Of a stretch of DNA of 64,000 nt, positions 3,003 through 43,627 are shown piece after piece. The position numbers were made by a program, and so were the translations under genes. The notes under the pieces are model-generated. The model had not been told where the DNA came from and searched no databases. It saw only the letters and a list, made by a program, of their open reading frames with translations. The stretch is from Acidobacteriota bacterium (GTDB taxonomy: Bacteria > Acidobacteriota > Holophagae > Acanthopleuribacterales > Acanthopleuribacteraceae): NCBI GenBank assembly GCA_020439745.1, contig JAGQSC010000029.1:248001-312000 (forward strand), in the 5' to 3' direction. Position 1 is the first letter of the stretch. Each line of letters starts with the position of its first letter.

Positions 3003-3341
3003 TTAGGAAAGACTCTGTAAGGCGTCTTCTGTCGAATCGTAAATCTGGAAAACGGTAACCAACGCTGTCAATTGCAGGAGGCTGTAAATCTTTGGTTTCA
3101 GATTGGCCAGTCTCAACTGAGCGCCCCTGTTCGAAATGGTGGTATAACTGGCGACCAATTCACCGACACCAGAACTGTCCATGTAGGAAACGTCCTGCAG
3201 GTCCAGGATGATTTTCTTCGCACCGTCCTCAAGCACTTCGTTGACACACTGCCTGAGCCGGACATCCCCTTCACCTATCGTGATCTTGCCCTGCAAGGAT
3301 ACAACGGTGACATCGGCGTGTTTTTGGATGTTGCTTTTCAT
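3003..3341 (-). CDS. STAS-domain anti-sigma factor antagonist
   Basis: Small single-domain STAS protein (112 aa) of the SpoIIAA/RsbV type. Such proteins bind anti-sigma kinases in partner-switching circuits and are controlled by phosphorylation of a Ser. The strand-helix junction carries VSYMDSSGVGELVASY (residues 51-66). The second Ser of DSSG (S57) matches the phospho-acceptor of SpoIIAA. No RsbW-type kinase gene is nearby. The closest potential phosphatase partner in the window is the SpoIIE protein at 38087-40234. It lies divergently from ruvA and stands alone between a shared terminator and its own promoter. Confidence 0.9.
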   Translation of the reverse strand: MKSNIQKHADVTVVSLQGKITIGEGDVRLRQCVNEVLEDGAKKIILDLQDVSYMDSSGVGELVASYTTISNRGAQLRLANLKPKIYSLLQLTALVTVFQIYDSTEDALQSLS

Positions 3342-5027: not shown

Positions 5028-6690
5028 ACACCCCTCGAATGCATCGGTAAGCCTGTTCTTCGAGCACTTCCGTCAGAATCTGGAAAAGATTCGAGATGGC
5101 CTTCCCACCGCAAACCCGACACAAAGGGCGCACATCATGCTGGGGCAACTGCGGGAGTTTGAGAAATCAGTCTCGGAGATACAAGACAACCTGCCGCAGG
5201 ACCAAAGCGAGGCCATTTCTCTGGCCGTGCTCCGGCGCATCAATGATTTTCGCGGGTTCGTTCAGTGGCTGATCAGCGAACAAACCATTGCGCCCGTGTC
5301 GAGCCTTTTCTATCGCAACAGGCAGCGGGCATGGGAACGATTACACGGCGAAAGTGACCTTCCGGAAACAGAGCGATTCGAGTGGCTGATTGAAGGTTCC
5401 TTGGGGTATCGCGAATCGGAAGGCGCCAAGACTTTTTTTGTCTTTGCATACTCCGAGCTGCGACTCATCATTACGTTTCCCTCTGACCGTGTCCGCATCG
5501 AGGACAAAGCCCAGGATCTTCTCTGGTTTGTGGCCAGAGTTCTTCCCGTCTACTTGGGCGGTGCGATTAATCGACCGCTTACTCGGCCCGAAACCGACAG
5601 CAACGTGATCGCTCGCGACTCGCGTTTTCTCAATCTGTTGGCCATGGTCGAGAAAGCCGCCGTGACAGACGTGAGTATCATGTTGGAAGGGGAAAGTGGC
5701 ACCGGGAAGGAAGTCATCGCCAACTTCATTCATCAGCGCTCACCCCGGCACCGAAAAGCTCTGATCGCCGTGAATTGTGCCGCCATCCCGGCAGGACTCA
5801 TAGAAAGTGAGTTGTTTGGCCACGAAAAAGGCGCCTTTACGGGAGCCTATGCACGCCAGGTGGGTCGTATCGAAGAGGCCGATGGTGGGACTCTGTTCTT
5901 AGATGAAATCGGCGAGATGGAGTTGCCGATGCAGTCTAAATTGCTAAGGTTCTTGCAGCTTCATGAATTCCATCGAGTTGGCGGCAAACAAAAAGTGACG
6001 GTGGATGTTCGTATTGTGGCTGCCACGAACCGCAACTTGAGACAGCAAGTTGCCGATGGACAGTTTCGCGAAGATCTCTACTATCGCTTATCCGTGATGC
6101 CGTTCCAAGTGCCGCCTTTGCGCGAACGGCCCTTTGATGTGGCGCCTTTGACCCAGTTTTTCTTACACAAATATGCCAAATCATTCGGGCTCTCTATCCC
6201 GGAAATCGATCCAATGGTACTTCAGCTGCTTGCCTCTCACGATTTTCCTGGGAATGTGAGAGAACTCGAGAATCTCGTGCAAAACATGCTCGTAACCAGT
6301 CAAGGTGAAATGATTCGGCCTGAACACCTGCCAGACACGATTCGAGGTTTGGAGCCGAAAGGGCAAGTCGTCCCGCAGCACCCTTCAAGACGCCAGCGTT
6401 TTCGTCTAACTCGGCACACAGCAAAAACGTTCAAATTGCCTCTACGCAAGGGAAGGCAAGTGGTCAATGCAAGTCCTTGGCAAAACCAGGTCCCGCAAAC
6501 CAATCGCGAACTCAAGGAACTCAAAGCGCTCATTCAAAACTACGCAGCAGAGTTGACGTGCGATTTGGAGCGGCGTTTTTTGGAACATCTGCTCGAACGC
6601 GCCGGGGGGTCCATGCCTCAAGCGGCAAAACTCGCAGGCATCAATCGCACGTTGCTGTACAAGATGTTGGAGAGAACGAAGCAAGGTTGA
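5017..6690 (+). CDS. Sigma-54 dependent transcriptional activator with unrecognised N-terminal domain
   Basis: Enhancer-binding protein for RpoN holoenzyme. Residues 1-185 form an N-terminal region that is neither a receiver nor an obvious GAF or PAS. It is helical at first, then has an alpha/beta stretch around [16 protein letters not shown]. The AAA+ domain follows with Walker A GESGTGKE (225-232), [15 protein letters not shown] (GAFTGA loop, 272-277) and FLDEIGEM. A basic linker (about 440-490) leads to a Fis-type helix-turn-helix ([18 protein letters not shown]). Coupling to ruvAB hints at a link with DNA repair or only a shared transcript. Targets are unknown. A 6-bp hairpin (6694-6712) without T-run follows the stop. 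Confidence 0.9.
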
Positions 6691-6789
6691 TTTTGTCTCA
6701 CACCGAGAGACACGACGGCAAACGGTTGCTATTCGTGGGTTTTCTGCTTCGGCACCAGAATTGCTAGCGTATATGCGCCGCATGTTGCG

Positions 6790-38086: not shown

Positions 38087-40234
38087 TCACCCTGTTTTTG
38101 GCAACTCGTCAACCGCCAGGACGGCCTTTGGCAAAGAGGCCACAACCAACGTCAGATCGTCGTCCTGTTCCCCAGATGCAACAAATTCACGAACGTCAGC
38201 GAGAATGGCATCTCTCATACCTTCTGCAGATTGGGAAGCATGGGACACGAGCACTTGTCTCAGTCGATCCAAACCGTAGAGCTCACCTTGATTGGTCATT
38301 TCGTCTAGTCCATCTGTGTAGAGGATGACCTTGTCGTTGAGGTCCATATGGAATACGGATGGCTTTAAGATTTTGGCGAATACATGGTTCTTGGCTAATC
38401 CGATCGCCATTCCGGGAGGCAAGAGCTCTTGGCATTGCCCGTGAGCCACATGAAGCGCTGGGCAATGGCCGGCTCTAACCAAGGTGCCTTGGTTTCTTTG
38501 GCCATCTAGAAGCAGGTACGCCGCTGAAATAAACACGTTGGCACTAAGCGCCGGATACAGAATTTCATTAATCGACAACATGAGTTGATGGGGGTTGTCC
38601 CAAAGATGTCTCAACGCGATCAGCACACCTTTGAGCTCAGCCATGTAAAACGCTGCGGACGTACCTTTTCCTGAGACGTCCGCAATGAAGATCCCCACTT
38701 TGCCAGCGCCGACCTCCAAGACATCGTAGTAATCGCCACCCACTTGCTTTGCGGGAATACAAATCGCAGATATCTTGTCGCCGACGGCGGTTTCGTTCAT
38801 GTCGGGAAGCAGGCTCATTTGGATATCACGCGCAATTCGCAATTCCTCCTCGTATTTCTCCTTTTCACGCACTTCAACCAATAGGTTTGAGATGTTGTCC
38901 GCCATGTCGTTGAAAGACTTGCTCATGGCACCGATCTGGTCTTTGCCCAGGTATGGGATACGGTGCGTTAGATTGCCTTGGGCCACCTGTTCATGGCCCA
39001 CGGCGATGGTGGCCAGTGATCGGGTGATGTAACTTATGAGGTAGATCCCCAATACAAACGCGAGCAGTAACGACAGGATGAGAAAGAGTGTAATGCCCAA
39101 AATCATGTATACCTGGATTTGTTTCTGATCGTTGCCAAGGAAGTTGCGTTCCTTTACGCGTCCGATACTGGCCAACAAAGACGATGGTGATATTTCGAAA
39201 GTCATATTAGCCGAATGCTGATAAACACCGGATTTCCAGTCCAGCGCGCGAAGTTCCCAGCTGCTGCGTAAAGGCCTGAAGAGCCATCTTACAAACCACG
39301 AACCGCGTTGTTGATCAGAACGGTAACTCCAGTAGCCGTCTTGTTGATCCAGTGCGATGTTGATGTCCATCGTGTCGCGAATATGTTGAATGAATTGTGT
39401 GTCCATGGGCACTGACGCGACGACCACAATGTTGCCATAACCATTGAAGGGCCGCACACCGAAATGTTGGATGAATAGCTGATCATCACGATCGACGATG
39501 GCAAGGTGTTCTGTTCCTTCAAACCATTCGGGAAAAATGGATTGATAGCGGTCTTCTGACAGCGTGAGGAATCCGTGTAACGCAGATTCCCCTTTGTCCT
39601 TCAATGTCTCGCAGTACATGCAGATCAGCGAGTTGGATGCATTCATGGATGAGATGAAGTAGACATCCACTGCCAAATCACTATAGGCGTGACGGGTCAG
39701 TTCGGTGGTTCGTGTCTCATCAATAATATTGGCGAGTTGGATCTCGACGTTAAAATTCGCGTCCCCCACCGAAAGCAAATCCGCGGTCTTTTCCTGAACG
39801 GCTGCTGAGTATTTTGCAAGGTCATTGGACATGAGAATGATTGTGTTTTCGACGGTATTGGCGGACGTGATGCCGAACAACGCCCTTATCCCCAACACAA
39901 AAATAATCACCGTACAGCCAAGCGGGATGACAGCAAAAATCAAGTAACTCAACATCAATTTGCGGTTGAGGTAGTACCTGGCCCATTGGCGTAAGGTCAC
40001 CCCCAACAACACCGCAAAGAGGATCGCGAGGCAGATTGTCAAGGCGCCGTTCACGGTGATGTCGTATCGGACTTCCGGCACTTCACCCGCGTTGAGCTGT
40101 ATGTACTGACGACTGAGAAATCCCTCAGTGTTGAACCCAAACACCGTACGTACCAAAAAATAGAAGGTAAGGAGTGTGAGTCCTGGCGGCAAGAACCTGT
40201 TGGCGTAGCTCAGCCACGTGGCTTTCATGCTCAT
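38087..40234 (-). CDS. Membrane SpoIIE/RsbU-type PP2C phosphatase with HAMP
   Basis: A 715-aa inner-membrane protein. Three N-terminal hydrophobic helices (about 15-33, 63-82, 94-118) are followed by a large periplasmic sensor (about 120-370), another TM helix (about 375-396), HAMP (SYITRSLATIAVGHEQVAQG through KSFNDMADNISNLL) and a linker coil. The PP2C phosphatase domain of the SpoIIE class has MSLLPDMNE, KQVGGDYYDV (metal ligand Asp), FIADVSGKGTSAAFYMAEL and VILYTDGLDEM. Such enzymes dephosphorylate STAS anti-anti-sigma factors; the STAS protein at 3003-3341 is a candidate substrate. It overlaps the upstream gene by 4 bases. Confidence 0.93.
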   Translation of the reverse strand: MSMKATWLSYANRFLPPGLTLLTFYFLVRTVFGFNTEGFLSRQYIQLNAGEVPEVRYDITVNGALTICLAILFAVLLGVTLRQWARYYLNRKLMLSYLIFAVIPLGCTVIIFVLGIRALFGITSANTVENTIILMSNDLAKYSAAVQEKTADLLSVGDANFNVEIQLANIIDETRTTELTRHAYSDLAVDVYFISSMNASNSLICMYCETLKDKGESALHGFLTLSEDRYQSIFPEWFEGTEHLAIVDRDDQLFIQHFGVRPFNGYGNIVVVASVPMDTQFIQHIRDTMDINIALDQQDGYWSYRSDQQRGSWFVRWLFRPLRSSWELRALDWKSGVYQHSANMTFEISPSSLLASIGRVKERNFLGNDQKQIQVYMILGITLFLILSLLLAFVLGIYLISYITRSLATIAVGHEQVAQGNLTHRIPYLGKDQIGAMSKSFNDMADNISNLLVEVREKEKYEEELRIARDIQMSLLPDMNETAVGDKISAICIPAKQVGGDYYDVLEVGAGKVGIFIADVSGKGTSAAFYMAELKGVLIALRHLWDNPHQLMLSINEILYPALSANVFISAAYLLLDGQRNQGTLVRAGHCPALHVAHGQCQELLPPGMAIGLAKNHVFAKILKPSVFHMDLNDKVILYTDGLDEMTNQGELYGLDRLRQVLVSHASQSAEGMRDAILADVREFVASGEQDDDLTLVVASLPKAVLAVDELPKTG

Positions 40235-41841
40235 TCCACGTACCCCAATGAACGGAGCAATTCTAAATACTGCTTGTCCTCGGTGGGCGGGGCACCGGAA
40301 ATGGTTCTAAGCCCATAGTCGACCGTATCGCTAGTGGCATCAAAGGCTCTTGAGGTATTTGGTTCCATGCGACGGTCAAGCGGCACGTGAAACAGATGAA
40401 GTAGTGTGGGTGCGACTTCCAGTTCGCCTTGAATAGGCGCAGAGCGCTTCAAAAACGAGGGACTGTGGAGGATCTTACATTCAATGGTTTCGTCGTTGAC
40501 AAAGGAGCGGCCTGAAGTCAATACCACCAACACTGATGTTTCGGCCGGCAACCGGGTCATGAGCTGCTGCATAAACCCTGCCCGCCATTTCATGACGCCA
40601 TCCATGGAGGCTAGGTTGCCGGAAGTGGCTAAGATGTCGCTCAGAGGAAAATAGGCAGCTGCCACCTTAAAATCCAGCGCAACACGAAGCAGCGTGTCCC
40701 AAACGGCGTATTCTCGCTGCACGATGGGTCCCACCGAAAGAGGCAGCGACTGGGCGAATTCGGACGCAGCTTGAACGTCAATAGGCACAGAGGTGAATGG
40801 ATACTCCTGGTGATCTGCATCCCAACGTTCAGAAATAACGCCACCCTGTTTACTTTCAGCTGGAAAGGTGTGCCAATAGCCCAATGCGAAGGTTGGCAAG
40901 CCTAGGCCATCGATGATCTCCCAGACATACTTAATATGACGTGTTGAGCGGGCAGTTGGTTTAGCAATTCCCGCCTTTTTTAAGAACCAAATGACTGGCC
41001 GTTGTGTTTGGTCCTGAGGGCTTAATGCCTGTTGCATCCATACCCATTGATAATTGAGTAATGCAGCGTTATTGAACTGAATGCCCGTCCCGAGACGAGT
41101 CCAGAATTGGCTAATATCAGACTCCTGGACCGTGAATTGAGAGGACTGCCAATCCGGAAGCAACGCGGTGTAGGCATCAAATTGAGCAAAAGGCACGTCA
41201 AACCCTAGGATTAAGGCAGGGGCTGCATTCCGATTTGGTTCCAAGTCCGCTCGCGTAGATGGAAGTAGCGTTTCCACGGTGATGACAAATCCAAACACCA
41301 GCGTCATCCATAACACGTGGGGTCGTTCTCTGGGGGGACGCCTGCCAAACCAGTACAACCTACTAATGGCCAGCAAATGCAGGCCACTCACAAATGTCCA
41401 GGAAAAAAGCGCCATGATCAAGAGCAGTATGAACTTGCTTGGCCCAGTCTGGATATGAATGTTTTGATGTAGCCAGAAGTCGATTAACACAAAAACCACC
41501 ATTGCCACAGGGAAACGAACATAGTGGAGCACGCTTCCTTTTTGCATGAGCCCAACCAAAGAAGAAGAGGCCATGATGACGGCAAGCACAAGGTCAATCA
41601 ATAAGGAGGCAATCGGAACCGCTGCAACATAAACCGCTGAAATAACCAGTTTGTCGGTACCTCTGGCAAGCGAGCTGAAACCGATTAAGAGAGCTGTGGC
41701 AAGTGCAAACAGGGAAGAGAAGACCGCAAGGTGTCTGGCATGTGCTCGCCAACCGGGATTGGTCTTGCCCCAAAGCCAGTGACTCACTGGGCTCCGCAAG
41801 TACCCAAGTTGGCGAAGTTGCTCGCGGTAATCGGCCGACAT
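40231..41841 (-). CDS. Membrane protein with degenerate sulfatase/phosphodiesterase-like domain
   Basis: A 536-aa protein. ATG 41841 is chosen because it follows the kinase stop by one base; upstream codons run through the kinase's zinc-ribbon region. About five transmembrane helices occupy residues 35-190. The extracytoplasmic part (about 205-536) resembles the alkaline phosphatase/sulfatase superfamily: APALILGFDVPFAQFDAY at the first metal strand and APTLLHLFHVPLDRRMEP near the end. The final LELLRSLGYVE is common at sulfatase C-termini. The expected metal-binding SDHG is replaced by LTSGRSF, so it is probably catalytically dead and may act as a sensor or binding module. Coupled to a kinase and to a SpoIIE phosphatase. 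Confidence 0.75.
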   Translation of the reverse strand: MSADYREQLRQLGYLRSPVSHWLWGKTNPGWRAHARHLAVFSSLFALATALLIGFSSLARGTDKLVISAVYVAAVPIASLLIDLVLAVIMASSSLVGLMQKGSVLHYVRFPVAMVVFVLIDFWLHQNIHIQTGPSKFILLLIMALFSWTFVSGLHLLAISRLYWFGRRPPRERPHVLWMTLVFGFVITVETLLPSTRADLEPNRNAAPALILGFDVPFAQFDAYTALLPDWQSSQFTVQESDISQFWTRLGTGIQFNNAALLNYQWVWMQQALSPQDQTQRPVIWFLKKAGIAKPTARSTRHIKYVWEIIDGLGLPTFALGYWHTFPAESKQGGVISERWDADHQEYPFTSVPIDVQAASEFAQSLPLSVGPIVQREYAVWDTLLRVALDFKVAAAYFPLSDILATSGNLASMDGVMKWRAGFMQQLMTRLPAETSVLVVLTSGRSFVNDETIECKILHSPSFLKRSAPIQGELEVAPTLLHLFHVPLDRRMEPNTSRAFDATSDTVDYGLRTISGAPPTEDKQYLELLRSLGYVE

Positions 41842-41842
41842 C

Positions 41843-42841
41843 TCAATGTTGTGCGACGTTGCAATGAGGGCAGGCTTGCGTGCGTTTGGAAATGGGTCGC
41901 CCGCAGTTCCAACAGAACAATCCGCCCAGTTCTTTTGTAGCGCGACGAGGCTGAGCTTTCGGAGCAGCCAATTCCATGCTTCCCAGTGATTTGATTTCTC
42001 CTGTTTGAACATCTACTTCCAGACGTCCAGACGAGCCGTCATTGGGTGACGCCATTTGTTCCAGATGCGATTTGAGTTCATGCGCCGACTGATACCTTGC
42101 TTTGATGTTGGGGTTCATGGCTTTGAGGATCAACTGGCTTAGTGGTAGAGGAATTTTTGGGTTGTGATGGTGGGGAGGCTTAACGTTTCCCTCACGAGCC
42201 AGTTGAGCCATTCTTTGTGGACTGGGGTCAAAAAAGGGTAGCCGACCCGTCAAGCTCTCATACATCAGCACGCCCATGGAATAGAGGTCGGATTGCCAGA
42301 CGGCACGCCCGGAGAAGTGCTCAGGAGCCATGTACGGTGGAGATCCGATGCGTGTGGAAGCATATTGGTCATCGCTGAGAAACCGAGATGTGCCGAAATC
42401 GGTGACCTTGACTCGCATATTTTGATCGACCAAGACATTTGCCGGGCGGATGTCCCTGTGAATGACACGCATCCGGTGGGCATATGCCAAGGCATCGCAA
42501 ATATCAATGAACCACGACAAAGCCAACTTGATCTCAACTTGTTTGTGCGTTCTCAGGTGTTGCTCGAGAGAAATGCCGTCAACGTACTCCATGACGATAT
42601 AGAAGATGTCATTTGTTTTTTCGGCGGTAATCACCGTGACGATGTTGGGGTGATTCAAAGCGGCCAGAAGCCGGGGCTCTTTGAGAAGTTTCTCAACGTC
42701 TTCGCCTTGTTTGTGGGGAATCTTGATGGCGACTTTTTTATCAATCCAGGTGTCGGTGGCCAGATAAACTGCGCCAAACCCTCCGCTTCCTATGGAGTCG
42801 ACGACTTTGTACTTCCCGATTTGTTGACCCTTGAAGAGCAT
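41843..42841 (-). CDS. Ser/Thr protein kinase with C-terminal zinc ribbon
   Basis: A 332-aa Hanks-type kinase without a transmembrane helix. Gly loop GSGGFGAVY (18-26), VAIK (Lys40), catalytic loop HRDIRPANVL (128-137), DFG (148-150) and GSPPYMAPE. The catalytic-loop Lys of HRDxKPxN is Arg here, a notable change in a position usually Lys in Ser/Thr kinases. The tail holds CWNCGRPISKRTQACPHC, a CxxC...CxxC zinc ribbon. It starts the long minus-strand operon that continues through the sulfatase-like protein and SpoIIE, so it probably acts with them. Confidence 0.9.
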   Translation of the reverse strand: MLFKGQQIGKYKVVDSIGSGGFGAVYLATDTWIDKKVAIKIPHKQGEDVEKLLKEPRLLAALNHPNIVTVITAEKTNDIFYIVMEYVDGISLEQHLRTHKQVEIKLALSWFIDICDALAYAHRMRVIHRDIRPANVLVDQNMRVKVTDFGTSRFLSDDQYASTRIGSPPYMAPEHFSGRAVWQSDLYSMGVLMYESLTGRLPFFDPSPQRMAQLAREGNVKPPHHHNPKIPLPLSQLILKAMNPNIKARYQSAHELKSHLEQMASPNDGSSGRLEVDVQTGEIKSLGSMELAAPKAQPRRATKELGGLFCWNCGRPISKRTQACPHCNVAQH

Positions 42842-43602: not shown

Positions 43603-43627
43603 AAAAGGGACCCAAGCGGGTCCCTTT
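43603..43627 (-). terminator. Rho-independent terminator after groL
   Basis: gggaccc (43607-43613) and gggtccc (43618-43624) pair around aagc. On the minus strand the hairpin is followed by TTTTCTTTT, as expected 30 bases after the groL stop. It also separates groESL from pyrE. Confidence 0.88.

Follow-up and report, generated by a model that had tools for sequence, protein, structure and literature searches.

Gene content and arrangement of the locus

Three genes lie consecutively on the minus strand of the window (the whole stretch of DNA analysed, 64,000 nucleotides from an uncultured Acidobacteriota bacterium) and encode, in this order, a Ser/Thr kinase (41843..42841), a membrane protein with five transmembrane (TM) helices and a degenerate alkaline phosphatase (AP)-fold domain (the middle protein, P0001; 40231..41841) and a membrane HAMP-SpoIIE phosphatase (P0003; 38087..40234). 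All features of the operon given below are on this strand. The kinase stop codon TGA (41845-41843) is followed by a single base (41842, G) and the ATG of the middle gene at 41841. The ATG of the SpoIIE gene (40234-40232) overlaps the TGA of the middle gene (40233-40231) as ATGA. The 1-base gap and 4-base overlap given by the first-pass annotation are confirmed by this direct reading of the junction bases. The ORF caller places the start of the middle gene at ATG 42012 (593 aa), 170 bases within the kinase gene; homologues of the middle protein begin at a position matching 41841, which favours the start giving 536 aa. A strong terminator-like hairpin (43604-43627, minus strand) separates groEL from pyrE, and the transcript carrying the operon may therefore begin with pyrE.

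The kinase is a Hanks-type protein of 332 aa without TM segment (PF00069, 2e-54), with the kinase domain at residues 11-259 (42065-42811). The Hanks landmarks VAIK Lys, HRD, Asn, DFG and APE are all found; the exception is the Lys of HRDxK. The catalytic loop reads HRDIRPAN, and Arg replaces the usual Lys in all seven orthologues, compared with HRD[IL]K in 12 of 12 other kinases checked. This replacement might reduce kinase activity. The C-terminal tail carries a four-Cys zinc-ribbon-like motif, CWNC...CPHC (41861..41914). Of the earlier designation as a zinc-ribbon Ser/Thr kinase, the Hanks kinase stands; the zinc ribbon is a weak match to PF13248 (20 bits, under the 27-bit cut-off), yet the four Cys are conserved in 7/7 orthologues. 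The 5.1-Mb genome G000 has at least 76 kinase-like matches to the operon kinase, and Hanks kinases are very numerous in this lineage.

The phosphatase is of PP2C type, 715 aa in length, and matches SpoIIE over the whole domain (PF07228, 7.9e-38). The SpoIIE Asp motifs VGGDYYD, IADVSGKG, TDGLDE and DDDLTL are all present, and with them the metal-binding Asp residues. The HAMP domain occupies residues 399-449 (38888..39040). Both domains bear out the membrane SpoIIE phosphatase named in the first-pass annotation. Residues 117-376 (~260 residues; 39107..39886) form an extracytoplasmic domain predicted from hydropathy, which could be a sensor of the phosphatase itself. The AF2 model of this outer domain (pLDDT 44) is too poor for fold naming. 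A CMYC cysteine pair (residues 205-208; 39611-39622) lies within it, is found also in genome G001 and is absent from G004; it could be a redox or metal site.

Topology and fold of the middle protein

The middle protein alone has no match in Pfam, NCBIfam or PHROGs. Five TM helices are given by hydropathy (residues 38-56, 72-90, 104-122, 138-156 and 176-194) and by the AF2 model (residues 38-194; 41260..41730). Positive charge on the N terminus and on the loop between TM4 and TM5 places the N terminus inside and the C-terminal domain outside. Ahead of TM1 is an LxxxGYL motif (residues 9-15; 41797..41817), invariant in an alignment of 16 family representatives, with GYL in 47 of 48 family members. 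The outer domain (residues 204-518; 40288..41232) is followed by a C-terminal LRSLGYV tail (residues 529-535; 40237..40257), whose LGY is present in 47 of the 48 members and in 11 of 13 active relatives.

The AF2 model was built from a three-row alignment; its mean pLDDT is 62, rising to 75-92 in the core of the AP domain, and its membrane region shows five long helices. Foldseek matches in the PDB include iPGM, alkaline phosphatase, MCR-2 and a sulfatase; PbgA (6xlp, rank 22, E 3e-3) and YejM (6vat, rank 41) are ranked lower. VIA-align gives Z up to 17.0 against sulfatases and NPPs over residues 205-497, and sulfatases, NPPs and iPGM align to the model at Z 16-17 across 215-250 residues, as expected of an AP-like fold. 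PF01663 is detected in 8 of the 16 family representatives, which backs the assignment to the AP superfamily. The five-TM protein with a sulfatase-like outer domain described by the first-pass annotation is thus upheld, the fold at Z ~17 on the AF2 model.

Loss of the active site

Forty-eight family members were aligned with 13 active relatives, also from Acidobacteriota, in which the nucleophile, the D..H motif and SDHG are each intact (13/13). The nucleophile column holds Ser in all 13 and in none of the 48; Pro is found in 40 members, and Ile in the window protein (Ile243; 41113..41115) and its two orthologues. At the SDHG position the window protein reads TSGR (Ser-Gly-Arg 443-445; 40507..40515). 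Across the family these columns hold Asp in 28/48, His in 0/48 (mostly Pro) and Gly in 46/48, followed by Arg in 41/48, so that the replacement is (D)PGR, with DPGR in many members. Two ligand Asp are kept: Asp215, the first (41197-41199; 48/48), and Asp402 (40636..40638; 47/48). The latter belongs to the second motif, D..H, in which His is kept in 5/48 and replaced by Thr in the window protein. The last His column was left out of the evidence because His aligns in only 9 of the 13 active relatives. The invariant columns of the 16-row alignment show no conspicuous substitute cluster of ligands. The nucleophile and two-metal ligands, SDHG included, that characterize enzymes of the AP superfamily are therefore not found together in the middle protein. 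The earlier report of a missing SDHG metal motif agrees with these columns, and the comparison of metal-ligand columns that it called for finds the ligand set incomplete in these columns, with two Asp ligands remaining.

By residue criteria, the AP domain of the middle protein is a pseudoenzyme, as is its whole family. It is improbable that the protein has kept or gained an unusual activity, with a single metal or with catalysis in the membrane part, as proposed for YejM. Such activity would fit the two ligand Asp kept in 47-48 of 48 members and the reported description of YejM as a metalloenzyme (PMC7576196); it is opposed by the loss of the nucleophile and the SDHG His in 48/48, by the loss of the other His in most members and by the lack of another ligand cluster. 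The family-wide G/R replacement motif, together with GYL and LGY, indicates selection for something other than this catalysis.

Distribution of the pseudoenzyme family in Acidobacteriota

A profile of the three orthologues reached distant kin, and 16 representatives were then aligned for a new profile. These have in common the N-terminal LxxxGYL, TM helices, the AP-fold domain and the C-terminal LGY tail. Matches to the 16-row profile are found in 84 of 396 genomes of the phylum at E 1e-15, active relatives included; ~45 of them extend over most of the model and are mostly of the pseudoenzyme type. A search of genome contigs with the narrow three-sequence profile gave two loci, seemingly ones already found. 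Hydropathy predicts five TM segments in 37 of the 48 members, six in 8 and four in 3. In the topology of a FastTree tree with active relatives as the root, the family and three divergent proteins (L023, L151, L152) form one group, with the window clade nested inside it. A literature search on AP-type pseudoenzymes of Acidobacteriota found nothing relevant. The middle protein belongs to a phylum-wide, undescribed dead-AP family whose members are probably envelope sensors.

Conservation in the bacterial family

The kinase and phosphatase genes are neighbours in each of the seven genomes from the bacterial family (G000-G006), with orthologue identities of 53-82% for the kinase and 35-74% for the phosphatase; in G004 the phosphatase gene is divided between two contig ends. 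In a single genome so rich in kinases, a kinase gene beside a SpoIIE gene could be chance, but conservation of this arrangement in seven of seven at such phosphatase identities is not. The flanking genes pyrE, groEL and Hsp33 are common to G000 and G001 only, among the regions read, so the kinase-phosphatase pair has remained intact while its surroundings were rearranged. G000, G001 and G004 carry the middle gene; it is not detectable anywhere in the other four genomes, which retain the kinase and phosphatase, and the pair therefore does not require the middle protein. In the comparison of relatives that the first-pass annotation called for, the three genes do not always occur together (triad 3/7, pair 7/7). 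A strict or obligate three-gene module is ruled out, the kinase-phosphatase pair holds as a conserved unit, and the middle gene appears as an optional input, accessory rather than core.

The kinase tree groups G004 with G003, G005 and G006 (support 0.98), and the phosphatase tree groups G000 and G001 with G002 (support 0.99). The middle gene thus stands at the same place in two sub-lineages, for which an ancestral gene and two losses are simpler than two insertions. On these small trees, the middle gene is probably as old as the bacterial family and was lost twice.

In G003, G005 and G006, ~450-580 bp separate the kinase and phosphatase genes. This interval neither matches the middle protein nor contains a convincing gene, and it was rejected as a remnant of the middle gene and as the site of a small gene in its place. 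The same operon was also sought in other Holophagae and rejected: the closest SpoIIE homologue (~35%) is beside an unrelated kinase of ~900 aa in opposite orientation (3/4 loci read).

The difference in distribution, together with the ~260-residue outer domain of the phosphatase, is what would be seen if the phosphatase sensed through that domain, the kinase and phosphatase formed an autonomous pair and the middle gene were a bystander in some genomes. This is regarded as distinctly unlikely; the same place of the gene in both sub-lineages and the tight junctions argue for an old, selected position.

Neighbourhoods of the family elsewhere in the phylum

A polyprenyl-diphosphate synthase gene precedes the pseudo-AP gene by one to three genes, in the same orientation, in 26 of 46 loci. 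STAS genes are near it in 9/46 loci and RsbW genes in 7/46; one cluster (in G150) was checked by Pfam and NCBIfam. STAS and RsbW are found mostly alongside the synthase, so their link could be with the synthase. A distinct synthase copy, more similar to the linked one, is present in 22 of 24 genomes with the family and in 10 of 175 without it (Fisher 1.6e-19, a value that treats related genomes as independent and uses an E-value threshold picked after seeing the data). The synthase is directly upstream, with or without STAS/RsbW, in L082, L120, L137, L140, L143, L149, L150 and others. Another neighbour context is secA. Genes named by eye as PqqD-like and/or radical SAM are downstream in L121-L123, L126, L129, L134 and L146-L148. 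The two best synthase copies of the window genome are on another contig than the operon, the first within an xse-ispA-dxs cluster and the second next to a UbiA-like gene, and a synthase tied to the operon was rejected.

These associations suit a middle protein that serves envelope or isoprenoid biogenesis as a lipid-handling or scaffold pseudoenzyme, holding for example a polyprenyl-linked lipid, and merely co-transcribed with the signalling genes in this lineage. No tblastn match to the kinase or SpoIIE is found beside the pseudo-AP gene outside the bacterial family in the loci compared (L072-L085), which also speaks for such a role. The role is nevertheless considered rather unlikely: the junctions of the middle gene couple it to both signalling genes, the arrangement is kept in two sub-lineages, and the STAS and RsbW neighbours elsewhere also indicate signalling.

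An RsbW-STAS pair resembling those near pseudo-AP genes elsewhere (RsbW 39-45%, STAS 42-49% identity) is present in G000-G005, and G006 likewise has an adjacent RsbW-STAS pair. The pairs lie away from the operon in all seven genomes. In G000 the pair is at L159:6441-7213 (contig C26, outside the window), with the STAS protein encoded at 6441-6782, and without an adjacent phosphatase. A STAS-domain protein is also encoded within the window (3003-3341, minus strand; domain match 3021-3332), ~35 kb from the operon.

Proposed function

The operon is tentatively interpreted, at somewhat less than even confidence, as a Ser/Thr phospho-switch to which a pseudoenzyme sensor of an envelope ligand adds an accessory input from the membrane. 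The soluble kinase and the membrane HAMP-SpoIIE phosphatase would act oppositely on a common cytoplasmic protein. The outer AP-fold domain of the middle protein would bind, without hydrolysing it, a ligand of the envelope, for which a lipid or a lipid-linked sugar or phosphate is the likeliest candidate. The five TM helices and the cytoplasmic N terminus with GYL may convey the ligand-bound state, through contact and without catalysis, to either the phosphatase or the kinase, on the model of PbgA/YejM with LapB in E. coli; this direction of the signal is presumed. An accessory sensor is proposed because the dead AP domain keeps conserved residues round the old site, stands outside on five TM helices and is encoded by a gene tightly joined to those of the kinase and phosphatase. 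Against this phospho-switch with an accessory sensor, the pair works without the middle gene in four of the seven genomes, the phosphatase has an outer domain of its own, and the kinase might be less active owing to the Arg in its catalytic loop.

A plausible phospho-target would be the STAS protein of the conserved RsbW-STAS pair; against it, that pair does not adjoin the operon. The STAS protein of the window is a possible alternative target. It is thought unlikely, though conceivable, that throughout the phylum pseudoenzymes derived from AP phosphodiesterases monitor polyprenyl-linked envelope lipids and report by Ser/Thr phosphorylation, through STAS/RsbW in several lineages and the kinase/SpoIIE pair here. 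If true, this would be a separately evolved Acidobacteriota counterpart of the PbgA/YejM lipid checkpoint. Candidate partners for testing are the kinase, the SpoIIE phosphatase, STAS/RsbW and the polyprenyl synthase, in a poorly studied phylum.

Comparison with known systems

The first-pass annotation spoke of a new kind of envelope-sensing module. This is too strong, as a five-TM sensor with a dead AP domain (PbgA/YejM) and kinase-PP2C operons (PMC6213207), which are common, are each known already. New are the pseudo-AP family, the motifs that mark it and its link with Ser/Thr signalling, none of which was found in a limited search of libraries and literature.

PrkC/PrpC-type operons likewise encode a Hanks kinase and a PP2C-type phosphatase together (PMC6213207). 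The operon described here differs in the soluble kinase with a zinc-ribbon-like tail, the membrane HAMP-SpoIIE phosphatase and the third membrane protein between them. SiaA-SiaB-SiaC of Pseudomonas aeruginosa couples a membrane HAMP-PP2C phosphatase with a kinase on one small target protein (PMC7647112), and is similar in that coupling. The SiaA model is the best NCBIfam match of the phosphatase P0003, at 42 bits, far under the cut-off of 700. SiaB is not a Hanks kinase, and to our knowledge the Sia operon has no pseudo-AP protein. RsbU/SpoIIE-RsbV-RsbW partner switching shares a SpoIIE-family phosphatase, and RsbW/STAS genes are near the pseudo-AP gene in other lineages; it differs in that the operon itself contains no STAS or RsbW gene and the link to such a target is presumed.

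Type I phosphodiesterase/nucleotide pyrophosphatase-like proteins of Acidobacteriota (PF01663) have the same fold and flanking motifs, LGY tail included. They differ in their intact catalytic residues and in the N-terminal GYL-type motif, present in 1 of 13 compared with 47 of 48 in the family.

PbgA/YejM (LapC) of E. coli and Salmonella is the closest known analogue in build. It has five N-terminal TM helices and an outer AP-superfamily domain lacking the usual catalytic residues, and is an inner-membrane LPS sensor working through a protein partner (PMC7018646, PMC9356133). It consists of DUF3413 and AP and, very distant homology aside, is not a detected sequence relative: none of the 16 family representatives matches DUF3413 at E 0.1, PbgA is missing from the matches of a profile search against PDB sequences, and the detectable kin of the pseudo-AP family are PF01663 phosphodiesterases. 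GYL, LGY and DPGR are the family's own motifs. YejM acts on LapB/FtsH; the middle protein is instead encoded with a kinase and a SpoIIE phosphatase. Dead hydrolases as envelope sensors are well known from this one case. A second, apparently separate family with this build, found widely in Acidobacteriota and in some cases coupled to Ser/Thr phospho-signalling, would point to a general route from lipid- or phosphoester-binding enzyme to sensor.
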